42,068 nucleotides of DNA from SAR202 cluster bacterium (lineage in GTDB: Bacteria; Chloroflexota; Dehalococcoidia; Lucifugimonadales; GCA-2712585): positions 1 through 42,068 of the forward strand of contig VGZZ01000022.1 in assembly GCA_016872285.1 (NCBI GenBank), in the 5' to 3' direction. Made by a program: the position numbers and the translations under genes. Shown here piece by piece: positions 25,144 through 31,493 of this stretch (the first letter of the stretch is position 1; every line of letters starts with the position of its first letter). Under the pieces are notes generated by a model, which ran no database searches, had not been told where the DNA came from, and saw only the letters and a list, made by a program, of their open reading frames with translations.

Positions 25144-26070
25144 CTATAACTCAGCCACGCCAATAAGCTCGGCGGTCATCAGAAATCGATGGGTGGGCTT
25201 GTTGGGCGGGACGCAGGTGACAAGGACTATCTCCGCCTTTGGGGCGTAAAGGTTCTTATGAAAGTACCCGCTGTCCATCTCAACGGACGTAAGGATCACA
25301 GGCTTGCCGTAAGCGCGGTATAAGTAGGCGCTGCCCCCAGCGAATAAGATCACGTCCACGGGCTCACCATTTGTTATCTTGTCCATTACAGAGGGAAGCT
25401 GCTCGAATTTTTCGTCGCTGGGGCCGGAACTGCGAATGTGCCCGAAGTACCAGCCTCGCGCGCCTTCGCCAGGGTTGCCGGCAGTCTCGATTCGGCCTAT
25501 GGACCCCTTGGGCTGCTGGTAGTACAACTTGTTGTCCTCATCCTTAATGAGGTCGAGGGTATTCACCGGGGCGTCCACGTCTATGGAGGGAACAAGAATC
25601 CGTTCAGCAGGAGGCAGAGCGCCCAGGCTTGGCAGAGTGTCTTGGAGGGACTCGAAGATATAGGTTTTGCCAAAGGCGTTGACGCTTATCTTTTCTTTGG
25701 CAGGCGGTTTCGGGGTGGCGGTGGGAATGGGGGCAGGGGAGGTGTACGCCGGGTCAACGCGGGGTTCTGGCGACGGTGCCGGCTCTTGCGACGCGGCGAT
25801 GGGAGTCCCAGGCGCTGCCGGGTTGGGAGGTGTCGGCAGGTCAATGGCGATGGAATCGTTTTCTGAGGGCAGCGGGAGGTAGGAGGGTGTGTCCTGGAGC
25901 GAGGCGACCTGGGCGGTAAGCTGGGTGAGGAACCGGTCTGCGCTCTGGTCCTGCCGCCAGTAGAAGAGTGGCATCCCCGCGGCCACGCCCAGGCCTGACA
26001 GGACCAGAAGCCAGGCGGCTATAACGGCGGCGCGTCTGGTCTTTAATCGAGCTGTCAACCTTTTGAGCAT
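25144..26070 (-). CDS. Sortase family transpeptidase
   Basis: A 308-residue membrane-anchored sortase. A basic N-terminus and one membrane helix (about 14-33) are followed by a long Pro/Ala/Thr-rich stalk (about 60-125) and the sortase beta-barrel (about 150-305). Catalytic residues are visible: His211 in W-Y-F-G-H-I-R-S-S-G, Cys286 in I-V-L-V-T-C-V-P-P and Arg295 in T-H-R-F-L-M. It would cleave a C-terminal sorting signal and join the surface protein to an acceptor. It starts 21 bases after the NicO-like gene, the last gene of the DUF4331 cluster. The subclass is not assignable by eye; D, E or F is plausible. The likely substrate is the DUF4331 protein four genes upstream. Confidence 0.88.
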   Translation of the reverse strand: MLKRLTARLKTRRAAVIAAWLLVLSGLGVAAGMPLFYWRQDQSADRFLTQLTAQVASLQDTPSYLPLPSENDSIAIDLPTPPNPAAPGTPIAASQEPAPSPEPRVDPAYTSPAPIPTATPKPPAKEKISVNAFGKTYIFESLQDTLPSLGALPPAERILVPSIDVDAPVNTLDLIKDEDNKLYYQQPKGSIGRIETAGNPGEGARGWYFGHIRSSGPSDEKFEQLPSVMDKITNGEPVDVILFAGGSAYLYRAYGKPVILTSVEMDSGYFHKNLYAPKAEIVLVTCVPPNKPTHRFLMTAELIGVAEL

Positions 26071-26091
26071 GTCGTGAGCCTCAAGCCGTTC

Positions 26092-27000
26092 TTAGAAGTT
26101 GGACGTGGCTTTTAGGATAATGATCAGGCCGGCTGCGGAAATCACGGCGGCGCTGCCCACAGGGAAAAACCTCATAGCTGCTTCTCCCACTTTTGACATT
26201 GCGCCATGCTGATGGCCGGTGAAGCGGAACAGCAGCTTTCGGCCATAGAGGAAGAGAAGGGCTACGGCGGTCAGCGTGCCCGCCAGCCCAAGGCTGAAGG
26301 CCACCACCAGAAAGAGGCCAAACCCGATGCGATGCAGGGCTATGGCGCTGAGCATGATAACGACGGCGGAGGGGCAAGGCAGAAGGCCGCCTGTCACGCC
26401 CACGGTCATCAGGCTCTTCCAGTTCACATCTCCACCGTGAGGGATGTGCTGATGGCTGTGCGGGTGATCGCGTTCAGCTTTGTCATCGGCGCGTTCATGG
26501 CCGTGGGAATGGGGGTGGTGGAGCCTGGATACGAGGCCAAAGGCGGGAAGCCGCGTCTTCAGCCACGAAGTGTCGCCCAGCAGCGCCCGCAGCCGCGACT
26601 GCAGGAGCCAAAGCCCCAGGCCAATCACTAGAATGCCGGAGGTAAGCTCAATCCAGGGGAACAGGTCTTCAGCCAGGATGTATTGAGACGCGAGAAGCGT
26701 TACCAGGCCCAGGGCGAAGACGGTGATGGTGTGAGTGACGGTCACAGGAATGCCGATGAGGAAGGCGTGTTTGAAGCTGGCCCTGGAACCCACCAGGTAG
26801 GCCGCTACGATGGTCTTGCCGTGGCCGGGCGAGAGGGCATGCAAAGCGCCCCATAGCATGGCCGCCAGGGCGGAGAAAAGCAGCACCGGCAGAGTCAGGC
26901 TTTCGGTGGTAATAAGGGAGGTGAAGCCTCCGCCCTTGTCGGTAGACGGAGAGGGCGCCGACGGGAGAAGCGCCGGCGGAGGCCGCGAGGGCGTCCGCAA
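26092..27000 (-). CDS. NicO-type nickel/cobalt transporter-like domain (C-terminal half of a frameshifted gene)
   Basis: This open frame carries the C-terminal membrane domain of a NicO/RcnA-like protein: G-A-L-H-A-L-S-P-G-H-G-K-T (family hallmark), a His-rich cytoplasmic loop with H-P-H-S-H-G-H-E and H-P-H-S-H-Q-H, and G-G-L-L-P-C-P-S-A. About six membrane helices are present. The family moves Ni2+ or Co2+ across the cytoplasmic membrane. The first 25 residues (start TTG at 27000) are a Pro/Ser-rich linker with no ribosome site. The N-terminal half of the same family protein is the gene ending in the overlapping frame upstream, so the pair is most likely one gene split by a single-base frameshift or a sequencing error near 26930-27005. 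A functional half-transporter cannot be ruled out. Confidence 0.75.
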   Translation of the reverse strand: MRTPSRPPPALLPSAPSPSTDKGGGFTSLITTESLTLPVLLFSALAAMLWGALHALSPGHGKTIVAAYLVGSRASFKHAFLIGIPVTVTHTITVFALGLVTLLASQYILAEDLFPWIELTSGILVIGLGLWLLQSRLRALLGDTSWLKTRLPAFGLVSRLHHPHSHGHERADDKAERDHPHSHQHIPHGGDVNWKSLMTVGVTGGLLPCPSAVVIMLSAIALHRIGFGLFLVVAFSLGLAGTLTAVALLFLYGRKLLFRFTGHQHGAMSKVGEAAMRFFPVGSAAVISAAGLIIILKATSNF

Positions 27001-27649
27001 TCGTAAAGCCTAGCTCCACCCTGCGAGTCTCCAGCGGGCTTTGCAGCAGGTTCTCAGGATACGCGGTAAGCTCCTGGCTCAGGTCGGAGGAGGGGGCCGG
27101 GCCTTGTATCTCGACCCCCGGGGCCGGGCGCACCACTATCTCCTTCCAACCCAATCGATTGGGGTGGTTGCCATCGCTGTACGATATCTGATAAGCCCGG
27201 CCCTCAGTGTATGGAAACTGTGCCTCAAACCACGCCGCCAATCGAAGGGTCTGAAGTCCGGCCTCGCCTGGTGATTGGATAAACTCGGCGTTTTGAGGCG
27301 ACGCCAGAAGATTAAGCTCCTCGCCTGCTACGGAGAGTTTGAGGTTCTTGGCTAGCTCGATAACTTCCTTTTGCAGATAGGCCCGGGACTCAGCCTGGTC
27401 CACCTGGCCGTCTTTATTGGCATCTATCTCCTGGGTCTCCTGGAAGGCTGGAATCTCAGCCATGTCTATGACGTATCTGACCCTGATTACGCCCGCGTAT
27501 ATCTCCATCCTGCTGTATTGGTTAATGGTAAAGTTTCCCAGTGGGTGGGCCTCAGCGTTGTTGGGCCGTATTAGGCCTGACAGTGCGCCTACGATAGCCA
27601 GGGCTACGACTAATAGTGCGACGCGGCGGCAGAAGATACGCCCGGTCAT
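26669..27649 (-). CDS. HPLGNF-type N-terminal domain of a NicO-like protein (frameshifted)
   Basis: The first about 217 codons encode a secreted domain: signal peptide to A-E-A, then H-P-L-G-N-F-T-I-N-Q-Y-S-R (His35 would be the mature N-terminus), and a canonical calcium-type EF-hand loop D76-x-N78-x-D80-G-x-x-D84-x-x-E87. In known relatives this domain is followed by a NicO membrane domain. Here the frame after about residue 217-240 (27,001-26,930) stops looking like protein and is only a shadow of the NicO frame (26092-27000), one base out. ATG (27647-27649) overlaps the TPR gene stop by four bases. Probable single 519-codon gene if the shift is corrected. Confidence 0.75.
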   Translation of the reverse strand: MTGRIFCRRVALLVVALAIVGALSGLIRPNNAEAHPLGNFTINQYSRMEIYAGVIRVRYVIDMAEIPAFQETQEIDANKDGQVDQAESRAYLQKEVIELAKNLKLSVAGEELNLLASPQNAEFIQSPGEAGLQTLRLAAWFEAQFPYTEGRAYQISYSDGNHPNRLGWKEIVVRPAPGVEIQGPAPSSDLSQELTAYPENLLQSPLETRRVELGFTIADALAASAGASPVGALSVYRQGRRLHLPYYHRKPDSAGAAFLRPGGHAMGRFACPLARPRQDHRSGLPGGFQGQLQTRLPHRHSCDRHSHHHRLRPGPGNASRVSIHPG

Positions 27650-28992
27650 GGCTTAGGGGCACCGTTGGCAGATATCTCTCGCAGGATTTCCTCCGCCCGG
27701 CTTTTGTGGATGAGAGAGAAAAAGGGATTGATATCCAGGGCTTCGGTCAGAAGCGTCCGCGCTTCCTGTTCGAGGCCAAGGGAGTGGCTGATGGCGCCGG
27801 CGTGGAAGAGCATCAGCGCGTCCTTGGTGCCAAGCTTTAGGGCCTCGCGGGAGTAGCCCAACGCCTCCTGCGAGCGGCCGTTTTTGAAGAACGCCCAGGC
27901 CAGGGCGTCGGCGGCGTGGACGCTAGGGCGACGCTGGTATTCCAGTGTCGCTCTGTCCAGGGCCGAGGACGGGTTGTTTCCAAGGTCGGCGTCGAAAAGC
28001 ACCATTTCCAAATCCGTGTTCACCCCGCTCTGCTGGTACAACCTTGTCTGGAGGTTCACCAGTTCCACGGCCCGCGACGCCTCCTCAAGGTTGCCGGCGG
28101 CGATGTGCGTCTCCGTCAGAAGGATGGCGTATTCAGGCGCGGGATACCGTTCTACAACCTTTTCATGGGCGGCGATGGCTTTTGGAAAGTCGCCGCTGGC
28201 CGCGTAGATTCGGGCCAGGGCGGCCTCGGCGGGGATATAGTCCGCGTATAAGTCCAGGGCCTTGAGGTACTCGAGTTGGGCGGCGGCAAGGTCGCCGGTC
28301 TTGAAATAGAGGTGGCCTAGCTGCACCAGCGTCCATGACGTGCCTTCGGAAGCGCGTCCCCCCGCTTCAACGGCCTGCCGCATGGCCTGTATGGCCCCCG
28401 GCATGTCGCCCTGGAGCTCGCGGGCGTAGGAGACTCTTGAGTAGGAGCTCAGGTCCGGCCTCAGGTCCACCATCCGCTGGAAGGTCTCCCAGGCCTGGCT
28501 GTACTGGCCCAACTCGAGATAAGCGTCGCCGATGACCCCTTGCGCGGCGCTGCTGTAGGGGTTGATGGATGCCGCCTGCCGCCCATAGTCGAGGGCTTCC
28601 TGGAACTGGTGGCGGGACAACGCCAGAGCGCCCAGGCCTATTAGCGCGTCGGCGTGGCGGGAGTCCAGGGCTAAGGATTTTTCGAAAGCCCTTTGGGCCA
28701 TGGAATAGTAGCTGGGATTGCTGGTGTCCCTGGCCTTTTGCAAGTACGCGCCGCCCAGGCTGGCGTAGGCTTGAGGGCTCTCAGCGCCGGAAGAGAGCCT
28801 GTCCTGGAGCGTCTGTATGAGCCGGTCCGTGGACGCCGCGCCGCCCAGACCGGAAGGGGCGGTATTGGCAGGGGAGGCGTCGGGGGCTATGGCCTGCCTG
28901 ATTACCAGCGTTACCGCGGCTGCCAGGAGGGCGACAAATAAGAGAGCAATGACGCTGTATCCGTTTTTCTTTGTTATGGCAGCTTGTCTCAT
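27646..28992 (-). CDS. Membrane-anchored tetratricopeptide-repeat protein
   Basis: A 448-residue TPR protein starting at the ATG encoding M-R-Q-A-A-I-T-K-K; the open frame upstream (to 29055) lacks family character. A short basic N-terminus and one membrane helix (V-I-A-L-L-F-V-A-L-L-A-A-A-V) anchor it. About ten TPR units follow, seen as repeats of the type A-x-x-x-L-G and A-L-A-x-x-x-x-x, for example L-G-A-L-A-L-S-R-H-Q-F-Q-E-A-L-D and L-A-A-A-Q-L-E-Y-L-K-A-L-D. It probably scaffolds partner proteins at the membrane. It overlaps the NicO-like gene by four bases and follows the DUF4331 gene by 95 bases. Confidence 0.88.
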   Translation of the reverse strand: MRQAAITKKNGYSVIALLFVALLAAAVTLVIRQAIAPDASPANTAPSGLGGAASTDRLIQTLQDRLSSGAESPQAYASLGGAYLQKARDTSNPSYYSMAQRAFEKSLALDSRHADALIGLGALALSRHQFQEALDYGRQAASINPYSSAAQGVIGDAYLELGQYSQAWETFQRMVDLRPDLSSYSRVSYARELQGDMPGAIQAMRQAVEAGGRASEGTSWTLVQLGHLYFKTGDLAAAQLEYLKALDLYADYIPAEAALARIYAASGDFPKAIAAHEKVVERYPAPEYAILLTETHIAAGNLEEASRAVELVNLQTRLYQQSGVNTDLEMVLFDADLGNNPSSALDRATLEYQRRPSVHAADALAWAFFKNGRSQEALGYSREALKLGTKDALMLFHAGAISHSLGLEQEARTLLTEALDINPFFSLIHKSRAEEILREISANGAPKP

Positions 28993-29025
28993 TTGAACTC
29001 GCGCCTTGTAAGTCTTAGGACTGCT

Positions 29026-29059
29026 GGCGGTGGGTCCGAAAGGGCACAGACCCACCGCC
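29026..29059 (-). promoter_or_regulatory. Intra-operon hairpin between DUF4331 and TPR genes
   Basis: GGCGGTGGGTC (29026-29036) is the exact reverse complement of 29049-29059, with a 12-base loop. There is no T-tract on the minus strand, so a partial terminator or an mRNA processing/stability stem is more likely than a full stop. It could make the first gene more abundant than the following three. Confidence 0.55.
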
Positions 29060-29087
29060 TCAGGTTAAGCCTAGCTATGAGGGAGCC

Positions 29088-30635
29088 TTAAACAGCTACC
29101 TGCGTAACTCTTCTGGCGCGGTAGAGGACCAGGCCGCCAGCCGCGAAAGCGGCCAGGCCTGCTCCTACAAACCACCAGAGGGAGGTAGACTGGCTGCCGG
29201 TATCGGGTGCGCCAACCTTGCCGTGGGGAACACTCTGGAAGCCTTGCCACGGATGGGCCAGGTAGGGGAACTTGTCGTGGAACTCAGCATCGTTTTCATC
29301 CACGCCGTCGCCCAACTTAACGCCGGTAGCGTCCGGGGTAAAGTCTGGATGGAACAAGGGGTAGGCCGCGCCAGCCACAGCTCGCAGCGAGATGTCGGTA
29401 ACGTCGTCGGCCAGGCGGCGGCCATTGGGATAGCCCGCCAAGTCCCCACCCAGGACTCCCATGGCGTTGGGGTCGTCGCTGGGCGGTACGGCCACGTTCA
29501 GCCTCAACTGCTCGGAGGGCACCACGTCCTTAGGCATGGTGAGGCCCTCAATGCCGGTGAGGAAGATGGCGATAAGGTCATCCCGCTGGTCCGCGCTGCC
29601 AAAGGCCCCCTGGGGCGGCGCCTCAATGCCATAGAGGGCCTTCAGGAGCTTGCCAAGCTCAGGGTCAGTGACGTAGTTGGCGAACTGAGCGTCATCGGCG
29701 GGCACGGAGGCGTTCCACTTGTCCTTATCACCCAAGGGAATGACAACCTCGTTCACTAGAGGAGCGCCCAGCCGGGACACCTGCACCCAGTCGCCGGAGG
29801 TTTCCGGCGTGTCGCCCATATCGGAAAGCACCTTGGTGGCCATTCGAGACGAAGTGCCCCAGACGCCAATGACGGCATTTTCGTCAGTGGGGTCGTCGGG
29901 CATGGCTCCGTCCTTGGTGAGGTGCTTTATGGGAACCTGGATAGCGATGGAGTGGACGTTGTAGCCTTGCAGTCCGTCCACGCCGCCGCCCTTGTTGCCT
30001 GGGAGCTTGCGAATGGTAAGGAGGTCGAATATGGCGCCCAGGTCGACGAAGAAGGCATCGTCAGTGGGGCCGGCAAAAACTTTGTATCCGTCGCCCACAG
30101 ATCTGACGGCGGCCCATGCCAGGGCCTCATAGTCTGGGGTGGACTTGGGGCCGATGTTGGCCGGGGCCACGGGTAGATCGGAGGCCAGCACCGTGGAACT
30201 ACTGCCCTTAACTCTGGTAACGCTATAGGTCTGGCGTATGTTCCAGTCCGTGTCTGTGAGGGAAGTAATGGGCCCAGTGTTGTAGAGGAAGGTGTCAGGG
30301 TTCATGATGTGAGTCTTGAACCTGAACTGGTAGGAGATGTCCTCAACAGCCGACCCGTCGTTGTCGATTTTGATCTCGTAGAGGACATCATCGCCAAAGT
30401 GGTGGAAGTTGGGACCTCCGGCGGGCTCCTCCATGGGATTGACGGACATGATCAAAGTCACGGTGTCCGGCTTGTCCGGGCTGACAAAGGCGTAGACGTC
30501 GGTGGTGTCAGCCTGAGGATCACTGGAGATTAGCGGGGCCTCCCTGTGGCTGGAGGCCGAGGTGATGAACGGGATCACTAAAAGGACCATGGATACTGCC
30601 GCCAGTATCACAATGGAAAGTTTGGTTCTCTGCAT
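29088..30635 (-). CDS. DUF4331 surface protein with sorting-signal-like C-terminus
   Basis: A 515-residue exported protein. The ATG at 30635 is chosen (AGGAGAG before it); the open frame to 30698 has no family similarity. The signal peptide ends near S-A-S-S, followed by the DUF4331 hallmark H-R-E-A-P-L-I-S-S-D-P and A-D-T-T-D-V-Y-A-F. Further motifs include F-H-H-F-G-D-D-V-L-Y and D-A-F-F-V-D-L-G-A-I-F. The C-terminus reads A-P-D-T-G (476-480), a hydrophobic segment (486-505) and R-A-R-R (506-509), the order of a cell-wall sorting signal. The function of DUF4331 is unknown. It is the first gene of the cluster with TPR, NicO-like and sortase genes. Confidence 0.9.
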   Translation of the reverse strand: MQRTKLSIVILAAVSMVLLVIPFITSASSHREAPLISSDPQADTTDVYAFVSPDKPDTVTLIMSVNPMEEPAGGPNFHHFGDDVLYEIKIDNDGSAVEDISYQFRFKTHIMNPDTFLYNTGPITSLTDTDWNIRQTYSVTRVKGSSSTVLASDLPVAPANIGPKSTPDYEALAWAAVRSVGDGYKVFAGPTDDAFFVDLGAIFDLLTIRKLPGNKGGGVDGLQGYNVHSIAIQVPIKHLTKDGAMPDDPTDENAVIGVWGTSSRMATKVLSDMGDTPETSGDWVQVSRLGAPLVNEVVIPLGDKDKWNASVPADDAQFANYVTDPELGKLLKALYGIEAPPQGAFGSADQRDDLIAIFLTGIEGLTMPKDVVPSEQLRLNVAVPPSDDPNAMGVLGGDLAGYPNGRRLADDVTDISLRAVAGAAYPLFHPDFTPDATGVKLGDGVDENDAEFHDKFPYLAHPWQGFQSVPHGKVGAPDTGSQSTSLWWFVGAGLAAFAAGGLVLYRARRVTQVAV

Positions 30636-30774: not shown

Positions 30775-31089
30775 GTCCATATGATTACGTTATCCTCTCT
30801 AAACACTGCCTCATATTAATGATTGCGAAATAAAATCCTCCACGGATCACCGCCCTTTTGGAAGCGGGATTTTTAATGCAAAAAGCCGACAAAATTTCTT
30901 TGTGGGATAAACTTTGCGGACTAGTAAGCGCTAGCTCTACCTAACCATGAGCCGGCGTGGTACAGACTAGTCCCGTGGCTTCTTCTTTGACTCCGTGAAC
31001 GCAGATCGCTCTTTGTTTGTCTGACCTCTTAAAACGTATCGCGTGCTGAGACCTCTGTTGAGCCGGGATAAAACGCCAGGGCGCAATTA

Positions 31090-31118
31090 TTGAGAGGCGT
31101 GTCCTGGAAGGGTATACT
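31090..31118 (+). promoter_or_regulatory. Promoter of tRNA-Arg/tRNA-Pro
   Basis: TTGAGA (31090-31095), a 17-base spacer, and TATACT (31113-31118) form a near-consensus sigma-70 promoter. The predicted start is about 3 bases before the tRNA-Arg gene. Confidence 0.8.
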
Positions 31119-31127
31119 TGGAAGGAT

Positions 31128-31202
31128 GCCCCTGTAGCTCAGCGGATAGAGCACCGGCCTCCGGAGCCGGGTGCGGGTGTTCGATTCACCCCAGGGGCGC
31201 CA
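31128..31202 (+). tRNA. tRNA-Arg (anticodon CCG)
   Basis: The acceptor GCCCCTG pairs with CAGGGGC, with discriminator G and encoded CCA. The anticodon loop CTCCGGA gives CCG. The T-arm reads GTTCGATTC. 75 bases with CCA. Confidence 0.95.
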
Positions 31203-31229
31203 CCTGTTTCCAGTACAGCTTTGTCGTAT

Positions 31230-31304
31230 CGGGGCGTGGCGCAGCGGTAGCGCGCATGGTTTGGGACCATGAGGCCGTGGGTTCGATCCCCACCGCCCCG
31301 ACCA
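31230..31304 (+). tRNA. tRNA-Pro (anticodon TGG)
   Basis: The acceptor CGGGGCG pairs with CGCCCCG, with discriminator A and encoded CCA. The anticodon loop TTTGGGA gives TGG. It follows tRNA-Arg by 27 bases and probably shares its transcript. Confidence 0.95.
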
Positions 31305-31346
31305 TCTTTTGCCGCCCGATTTTTTACCGGAGGAGTTAAGACCCTC

Positions 31347-31493
31347 ATGACAGGCAGAGCCAACTGGTACTACAATCATCCCCCCACCTGCACCTGTGTC
31401 GATTGCAACGAGCGGCGGTTGGGACGCAAGAAGGATAAAGGCAAGAGTTCCTGGTTAAAGAAGTTATGGCCCTTCTCTAAGAACAAGGACTAG
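31347..31493 (+). CDS. Small basic protein with a CTCVDC motif
   Basis: A 48-residue protein starting at ATG with GGAGG a few bases before. The sequence has N-W-Y-Y-N-H-P-P-T-C-T-C-V-D-C-N-E-R-R, then a Lys-rich stretch and W-L-K-K-L-W-P-F. The C-x-C-x-x-C cluster could bind zinc or another metal. A longer frame from 31269 overlaps tRNA-Pro and lacks a ribosome site. It lies 10 bases before the RraA-like gene and may be cotranscribed. I do not recognise a family. Confidence 0.65.
   Translation: MTGRANWYYNHPPTCTCVDCNERRLGRKKDKGKSSWLKKLWPFSKNKD

Follow-up and report, generated by a model that had tools for sequence, protein, structure and literature searches.

A DUF4331 locus of a SAR202 bacterium: a recurrent TPR and metal transporter core, a candidate N-terminal metal site and a local sortase

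What does a DUF4331 protein do, and which of the genes around it belong to its function? The question is raised by four consecutive genes of a SAR202 cluster bacterium (Chloroflexota; assembly GCA_016872285.1, contig VGZZ01000022.1), within a stretch of 42,068 nucleotides referred to here as the window. On the minus strand, between positions 25144 and 30635, lie four coding regions with intergenic gaps of 95, -4, and 21 bases; these encode a DUF4331 protein, a tetratricopeptide repeat (TPR) protein, a metal transporter with a broken reading frame, and a sortase. A first-pass annotation of the DNA described these genes as a self-contained sortase locus for surface display with a link to a divalent metal. 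Our analysis shows instead that the conserved core comprises DUF4331, TPR and metal transporter genes and spans at least five phyla, and that the window sortase is a late, lineage-specific add-on. The features of the locus are as follows.

29088..30635, minus: DUF4331 protein, 515 aa, with signal peptide (PF14224, 520 bits; AlphaFold2 model)
30546..30554, minus: codons of the predicted mature N-terminus Ser-Ser-His (NH2-X-X-His), following ..FITSA (cleavage rule, invariant His)
29196..29210, minus: APDTG, candidate sortase recognition motif (APVTG in L038, LPPTG in L131; best anchor match of the genome)
29109..29180, minus: hydrophobic stretch then RARR, anchor tail (from sequence; PF00746 match 29109-29207)
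27646..28992, minus: membrane-anchored TPR protein, N-terminal hydrophobic segment, ATG at 28992 (TPR_2, 75 bits)
26669..27649, minus: open frame, HPLGNF half of the transporter (last ~100 codons out of frame)
27005..27547, minus: anglerase-like ectodomain, predicted to start His-Pro-Leu-Gly-Asn-Phe after a signal peptide (AlphaFold2, Foldseek, VIA)
26900..26985, minus: linker between ectodomain and NicO domain, reading frame broken (relatives uninterrupted)
26092..27000, minus: open frame, NicO (RcnA-like) membrane domain with His-rich loop (PF03824, 51.9 bits)
25144..26070, minus: sortase, 308 aa, N-terminal transmembrane (TM) segment, His211/Cys286/Arg295 (PF04203, 31.4 bits)

The four minus-strand genes, their spacing and coordinates, their families and the catalytic residues of the sortase agree with the first-pass annotation. 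Its single HPLGNF-plus-NicO protein does not, as the two halves sit in different frames.

A core shared across phyla

To place the locus in context, loci from other phyla were drawn from one scan of genome contigs and from plasmid records, and profile searches spanned 80 genome loci together with the Chloroflexota loci. Annotated Streptomyces plasmids encode DUF4331, TPR and a nickel transporter in succession, and Nostoc encodes DUF4331, TPR and NicO. Plasmids of Marinobacter, Pseudoalteromonas, Comamonadaceae and Lichenicola carry DUF4331, in some cases a small protein, a hypothetical or TPR-like protein and HupE/UreJ, while Bacteroidota and Miltoncostaea feature DUF4331 followed by TPR. In Gram-negatives, the three-gene core has no sortase gene nearby. 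The earlier expectation of similar gene sets in Actinobacteria is thus borne out and extends to further phyla, as is the suggestion that the system is functionally undescribed: no mention of DUF4331 or PF14224 was found in the literature searched, most subscription journals lying outside that search. On a Rhizobium plasmid (L170:1-6679), a short DUF4331 (M↓SHH) adjoins HupE/UreJ, and genes for a cyclase and a DUF4242 protein lie close by; nickel binding has been published for S. coelicolor SCO4226, which is aligned with a DUF4242 protein (PMC4186839).

N-terminal histidines and candidate export partners

The window DUF4331 protein matches PF14224 over its full length (520 bits vs. a curated cut-off of 27), and was modeled by AlphaFold2 with a predicted local distance difference test (pLDDT) of 85.8 and a predicted template modeling score of 0.86. 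A sequence search of the PDB returned no relative, and Foldseek searches with the model returned nothing under E 0.001; the second-ranked match was the CBM9 structure 1i82 (E 0.08). The best VIA match was the CBM74 of Sas6 (Z 7.8 over 187 residues, root-mean-square deviation (rmsd) 4.0; antibody background Z 5.7), which is too weak for CBM74 to be named as the fold.

Every DUF4331 protein with a readable N-terminus (114 in the long branch, ~30 in the short branch) features a His two residues past its predicted mature N-terminus. In the secreted long-branch forms, an Ala stands three residues ahead of the His of the SSHREAP motif in 56/56, and the signal-peptidase -3/-1 rule is satisfied in 55 of these. 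The signal-less long forms arrive at the same position by another route, with a start codon exactly three residues before the same His in 58/58. Ser, Thr and Ala at the second position allow removal of the initiator Met, and removal of either the signal peptide or Met would leave both long forms starting with NH2-Ser/Thr/Ala-Ser-His. Short-branch proteins begin A/G↓ADH, A↓SDH, M↓ADH, M↓SDH, M↓SNH or M↓SHH; His3 is all that the two branches share, the short branch reading XDH, XNH or XHH. A free NH2-X-X-His is the amino-terminal Cu(II)/Ni(II)-binding (ATCUN) motif (PMC12509749; PMC7701195), and by sequence and cleavage rules it is found at the predicted mature end of all readable members. These data suggest that DUF4331 very probably acts outside the cytoplasm with its X-X-His end free, and that this end would likely bind Cu or Ni.

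The partner transporters possess a predicted N-terminal His of their own. In the window, the transporter is split between two frames, one with HPLGNF (26669-27649) and the other with NicO (26092-27000), the break lying in a variable linker, and in 14/14 aligned relatives the ectodomain and NicO domain share one frame; either the sequence is wrong at this point or the gene is truly damaged. Apparent interruptions are seen in two further HPLGNF-NicO genes (L106:10951-12779 and L080:5343-7601; Streptomyces tuirus, actinobacterial metagenome-assembled genome). The NicO half matches PF03824 at 51.9 bits and features a His-rich loop. Among NCBIfam models it scores highest on NF007454, nickel/cobalt efflux transporters (114 bits vs. 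a cut-off of 195); on this model the window gene and its relatives reach 114-133 bits, all under the cut-off. The predicted mature start of the ectodomain, ..NAEA↓HPLGNF, places a His directly after the signal peptide, as in anglerases. An Ala directly precedes this His in 32/34 HPLG-type proteins, and in nearly all partner transporters, of both the NicO and HupE/UreJ families, the His comes right after the signal-peptidase Ala. His1 is invariant across 29 ectodomain sequences and is the sole invariant His; a canonical two-His brace is therefore rejected, and only a mono-histidine brace would fit.

The predicted structure of the ectodomain points in the same direction. Its AlphaFold2 model (pLDDT 93.2) is an Ang-like β-sandwich, for which the sole PDB match under E 0.001 in Foldseek is 9GCE, copper-bound Ang-1 (E 1.1e-4). 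VIA aligns 9GCE with Z 9.3 over 133 residues (rmsd 3.5), followed by the zinc protein ZrgA (Z 7.7). The sequence profile of the ectodomain missed 9GCE, which was recovered by the fold search alone. Ang-1 is reported to bind Cu with a Kd of ~74 nM, to show significant Ni binding and to have a mono-histidine brace that includes Asn41; there too, ZrgA (8F1B) was the nearest structure (Nat Commun 2025, PMC12537917). Anglerases are fused to a HupE/UreJ-2 permease, and the permease here is NicO, frameshifted in the window; the anglerase paper makes no mention of DUF4331, NicO or TPR. The first-pass annotation had derived its metal link from NicO and an EF-hand. The link to metal is now stronger, through the N-termini and the anglerase-like ectodomain, but the EF-hand is rejected as its basis, with a match of 12.6 bits vs. 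a cut-off of 25.9 and a loop that is absent in several relatives.

The genes beside DUF4331 change with its export signal. A TPR gene is near 40/44 secreted long-branch loci vs. 0/54 signal-less long loci; secreted forms adjoin TPR genes, often with NicO too, and a transporter is near the signal-less long form in only 1/54. Directly upstream of the signal-less long form, 56/58 loci encode a ~100-residue protein with a twin-arginine (Tat) signal, as compared with 0/54 for the secreted form. The short branch presents a similar swap: TPR is found with 9/10 secreted forms (the tenth is cut by a contig end), and in the M↓ADH clade a different Tat-signal protein lies directly downstream in 12/13. 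The two Tat partner families have no detectable mature domain in common, and the cytosolic long and cytosolic short clades are separate in trees, so the exchange of general secretory (Sec) for Tat partners arose at least twice. A signal-less protein beside a twin-arginine partner is the arrangement of a Tat hitchhiker, and we infer that folded, signal-less DUF4331 would be co-exported in this way, an arrangement arisen at least twice.

The upstream family comprises ~60 similar open reading frames (ORFs; e.g. L059:7643-7957 and L142:8460-8792), nearly always just upstream of signal-less DUF4331, with the C-terminus EPLVAHVRDxxTGEIxVMVGxREVxxRDPxLVxRLLxAAR. Only Tat-signal-type Pfam matches reach their cut-off in this family, and that of TAT_signal was reached in 1/5 partners tested. 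The second, unrelated family (L156:6767-7333 and L244:3151-3651), downstream of short M↓ADH DUF4331, gave nothing in Pfam but Tat-signal-type matches below threshold and a single weak match ascribed to chance.

The sortase and surroundings of the window locus

The window sortase matches PF04203 (31.4 bits vs. a cut-off of 26.6), with His211, Cys286 and Arg295 in order and located as first annotated. It falls outside the class F family NF033748 (14 bits vs. 166) and is 30-40% identical to sortases that order-mates bear about once per genome; a profile search found a second sortase in its own genome. The neighboring DUF4331 tail carries the APDTG, hydrophobic segment and RARR that had been claimed for it, in the order of an LPXTG signal: P-x-T-G, 20 mostly hydrophobic residues, and a basic end. 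By E-value, it is the best Gram_pos_anchor match in the 2.6 Mb genome. The nearest DUF4331 (L038, 73% identical) ends AAPVTG-TM-ARR. In another Chloroflexota genome (G054), the order is DUF4331, class F sortase, TPR and nickel transporter, with a DUF4331 that ends ALPPTGE-TM-RRR, and the same order is annotated in Streptomycetaceae NBC_01309. The adjacent sortase probably processes DUF4331 in this genome. A second sortase-substrate-like protein of the genome (L178, minus strand, G000:C60:10078-10182; 391 aa) ends VPPSTG-TM-RRNRR.

Across the wider sample, a sortase lies within 6.5 kb at 4/44 secreted-form loci (the window, L131, L138 and L159) and 0/54 Tat-form loci. Taking genomes to encode one to five sortases each, we estimate the chance of a sortase at such a distance at ~1% per locus; the association with DUF4331 is above chance, yet confined to some lineages. 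The tails vary: P-x-T-G is found in the window, L038 and L131, Streptomyces proteins feature a plain membrane anchor lacking T-G, and most DUF4331 proteins feature neither. In L159 (5407-7299), DUF4331 ends in a LysM domain beside a class F-like sortase, which is another mode of wall tethering. These data suggest that ways of holding the protein at the surface were gained repeatedly, each by local means. The checks proposed with the first-pass annotation included a count of gene neighbors and a comparison of tails for a conserved P-D-T-G. The count recovers TPR and NicO and places a sortase at four of the secreted-form loci counted, and most DUF4331 tails lack P-x-T-G. With a Gram-negative core that is free of sortases, a locus self-contained around the sortase is not supported, although its conservation, its lack of description and its metal link are.

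Full-length DUF4331 occurs in 1/247 genomes of the window's order, so it was either recently gained or mostly lost there. The GC content of the locus (0.607 vs. 0.605) gives no sign of recent transfer. Just past the DUF4331 gene lie tRNA-Arg(ccg) (31128-31202) and tRNA-Pro(tgg) (31230-31304), both on the plus strand; this pair and the rarity of DUF4331 in the order make an insertion site possible there, though GC shows no difference. An ORF over the two tRNAs (31029-31379) is probably a spurious frame. A search for anti-phage defence genes at the locus returned a weak generic TPR match and nothing more.

A proposed scheme, its alternatives and known relatives

We tentatively propose that DUF4331 acts as a metalloprotein outside the cytoplasm, assisted by the TPR protein and the anglerase-like transporter and anchored in this genome via APDTG and sortase. 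The exposed NH2-Ser-Ser-His would form a Cu(II)/Ni(II)-type site. The Sec form would be exported unfolded, then handled outside by two dedicated partners: the membrane-tethered TPR protein, which may provide assembly or docking, and the transporter, in which an anglerase-like, N-terminal-His outer domain is joined to a NicO permease resembling RcnA. In the window genome, the adjacent sortase would then probably fix DUF4331 to the cell wall through APDTG. The signal-less form would leave already folded, riding on its small Tat-signal partner. Metal would reach the Sec form beyond the membrane and the Tat form in the cytoplasm; loaded inside, the latter would therefore need neither TPR nor transporter. 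Delivery of metal outward, rather than uptake, is quite possible, and we adopt it provisionally. More speculative still is the broadest form of the proposal, in which DUF4331 may comprise a new class of extracytoplasmic metalloproteins with X-X-His as the functional site, where a Sec route (TPR, anglerase-type transporter, outside loading) and a Tat route (unrelated carriers recruited at least two times, inside loading) converge on the same kind of N-terminus.

Several observations weigh against this proposal. Arg-Glu-Ala-Pro (residues 4-7) is as invariant as His3 in the long-branch alignment, a degree of conservation that exceeds the demands of an isolated ATCUN site and may reflect a structural role. 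The long-branch Sec/Tat counts amount to one event, since the tree shows a single switch. One signal-less, Tat-form locus (L150) has a nearby NicO gene, and nine cytosolic short-form loci (M↓SDH, SHH, SNH and one ADH) lack a Tat partner, one of which (L245) has a weak TPR match. In the window itself the NicO gene is frameshifted, and the DUF4331 tail is under curated cut-offs (PF00746 15.9 bits, or 18.8 in the genome scan, vs. 20; TIGR01167 13.1 vs. 15.9). A nickel-enzyme search found no convincing urease or NiFe hydrogenase in this genome. Finally, the anglerase authors propose uptake, not export (PMC12537917).

Uptake is the closest competitor. A surface or secreted DUF4331 receptor could hand captured metal to the anglerase-like ectodomain for import by NicO, much as anglerases are proposed to be capture domains feeding permeases, with HupE/UreJ-2 domains called nickel permeases (PMC12537917). 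HupE/UreJ replaces NicO in Gram-negatives, and the window receptor would be anchored on the surface, both of which suit a capture system. We nevertheless consider uptake somewhat unlikely: the NicO half is closest to a nickel/cobalt efflux family, this genome has no classical Ni enzyme that was found, and a pure receptor would still need the transporter that is near the Tat form in just 1/54 loci. A reading with no metal at all, in which the N-terminal motif is a structural plug, DUF4331 a ligand-binding β-sandwich of the CBM9/CBM74 kind and the transporter incidental, accommodates the invariance of SHREAP across six residues and the faint Sas6 and 1i82 resemblances. We regard it as unlikely, as His3 alone is common to the short branch, the transporter partner recurs across phyla in two families, and a Z under 8 may reflect a common arrangement only.

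The remaining alternatives concern the window locus more than the family. That sortase-based display is the essence of the locus, as first annotated, draws on the P-x-T-G tail and sortase of the window, the LPPTG tail and class F sortase of G054, the exact four-gene set of NBC_01309, and sortases that adjoin a second DUF4331 in Streptomyces CA-256286 and NBC 01759. It is made distinctly improbable by the sparse sortases of secreted loci and their absence from Tat-form loci, by the sortase-free Gram-negative core, and by the Streptomyces and LysM tails. Least probable of all is a decaying copy, in which this strain really has a defective transporter and the locus has ceased to function. The frameshift would suit this reading, as would the scarcity in the order of full-length DUF4331, but every other frame is intact and metagenome assemblies often contain errors of a single base.

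With a fixed X-X-His, an anglerase-like partner and a Sec/Tat partner swap, DUF4331, a family common in soil and marine bacteria, becomes a specific, testable metalloprotein hypothesis. If the proposed scheme is correct, the two export arrangements would constitute a natural experiment on the site of metallation, outside after Sec or inside before Tat, and the anglerase idea, introduced in 2025 for HupE/UreJ-2, would reach NicO transporters.

Each part of the system has a known relative, but the literature searched appears to hold no description of the DUF4331 system, of its N-terminal rule or of the two export arrangements matched to it. The Tat hitchhiker pairs, such as NiFe hydrogenase subunits, are known to be co-exported, and likewise comprise a signal-less protein beside a small twin-arginine partner; DUF4331 and its two Tat partners match no known pair, and the predicted co-export concerns relatives rather than the window copy. 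LPXTG-type sorting is represented in the window by the sortase His, Cys and Arg and by a P-x-T-G, hydrophobic and basic tail on the neighboring protein, although this sortase fits no curated class, the tail is under the cut-offs, and most relatives lack both. The ATCUN sites of albumin and histatins (PMC7701195) have NH2-X-X-His in common with DUF4331, in which, unlike in those proteins, it is predicted from sequence and embedded in a longer invariant motif. RcnA and other NicO transporters (PF03824, NF007454) share the NicO membrane domain and His-rich loop, to which the window gene adds a 180-residue outer domain, scoring under the NF007454 cut-off. The anglerases Ang-1 and Ang-2 (PMC12537917, 9GCE) likewise feature a His after signal cleavage, the β-sandwich predicted here and fusion to a metal permease; theirs is HupE/UreJ-2, whereas the window type is NicO/RcnA-like, bears the HPLGNF signature, and is encoded with DUF4331 and TPR.

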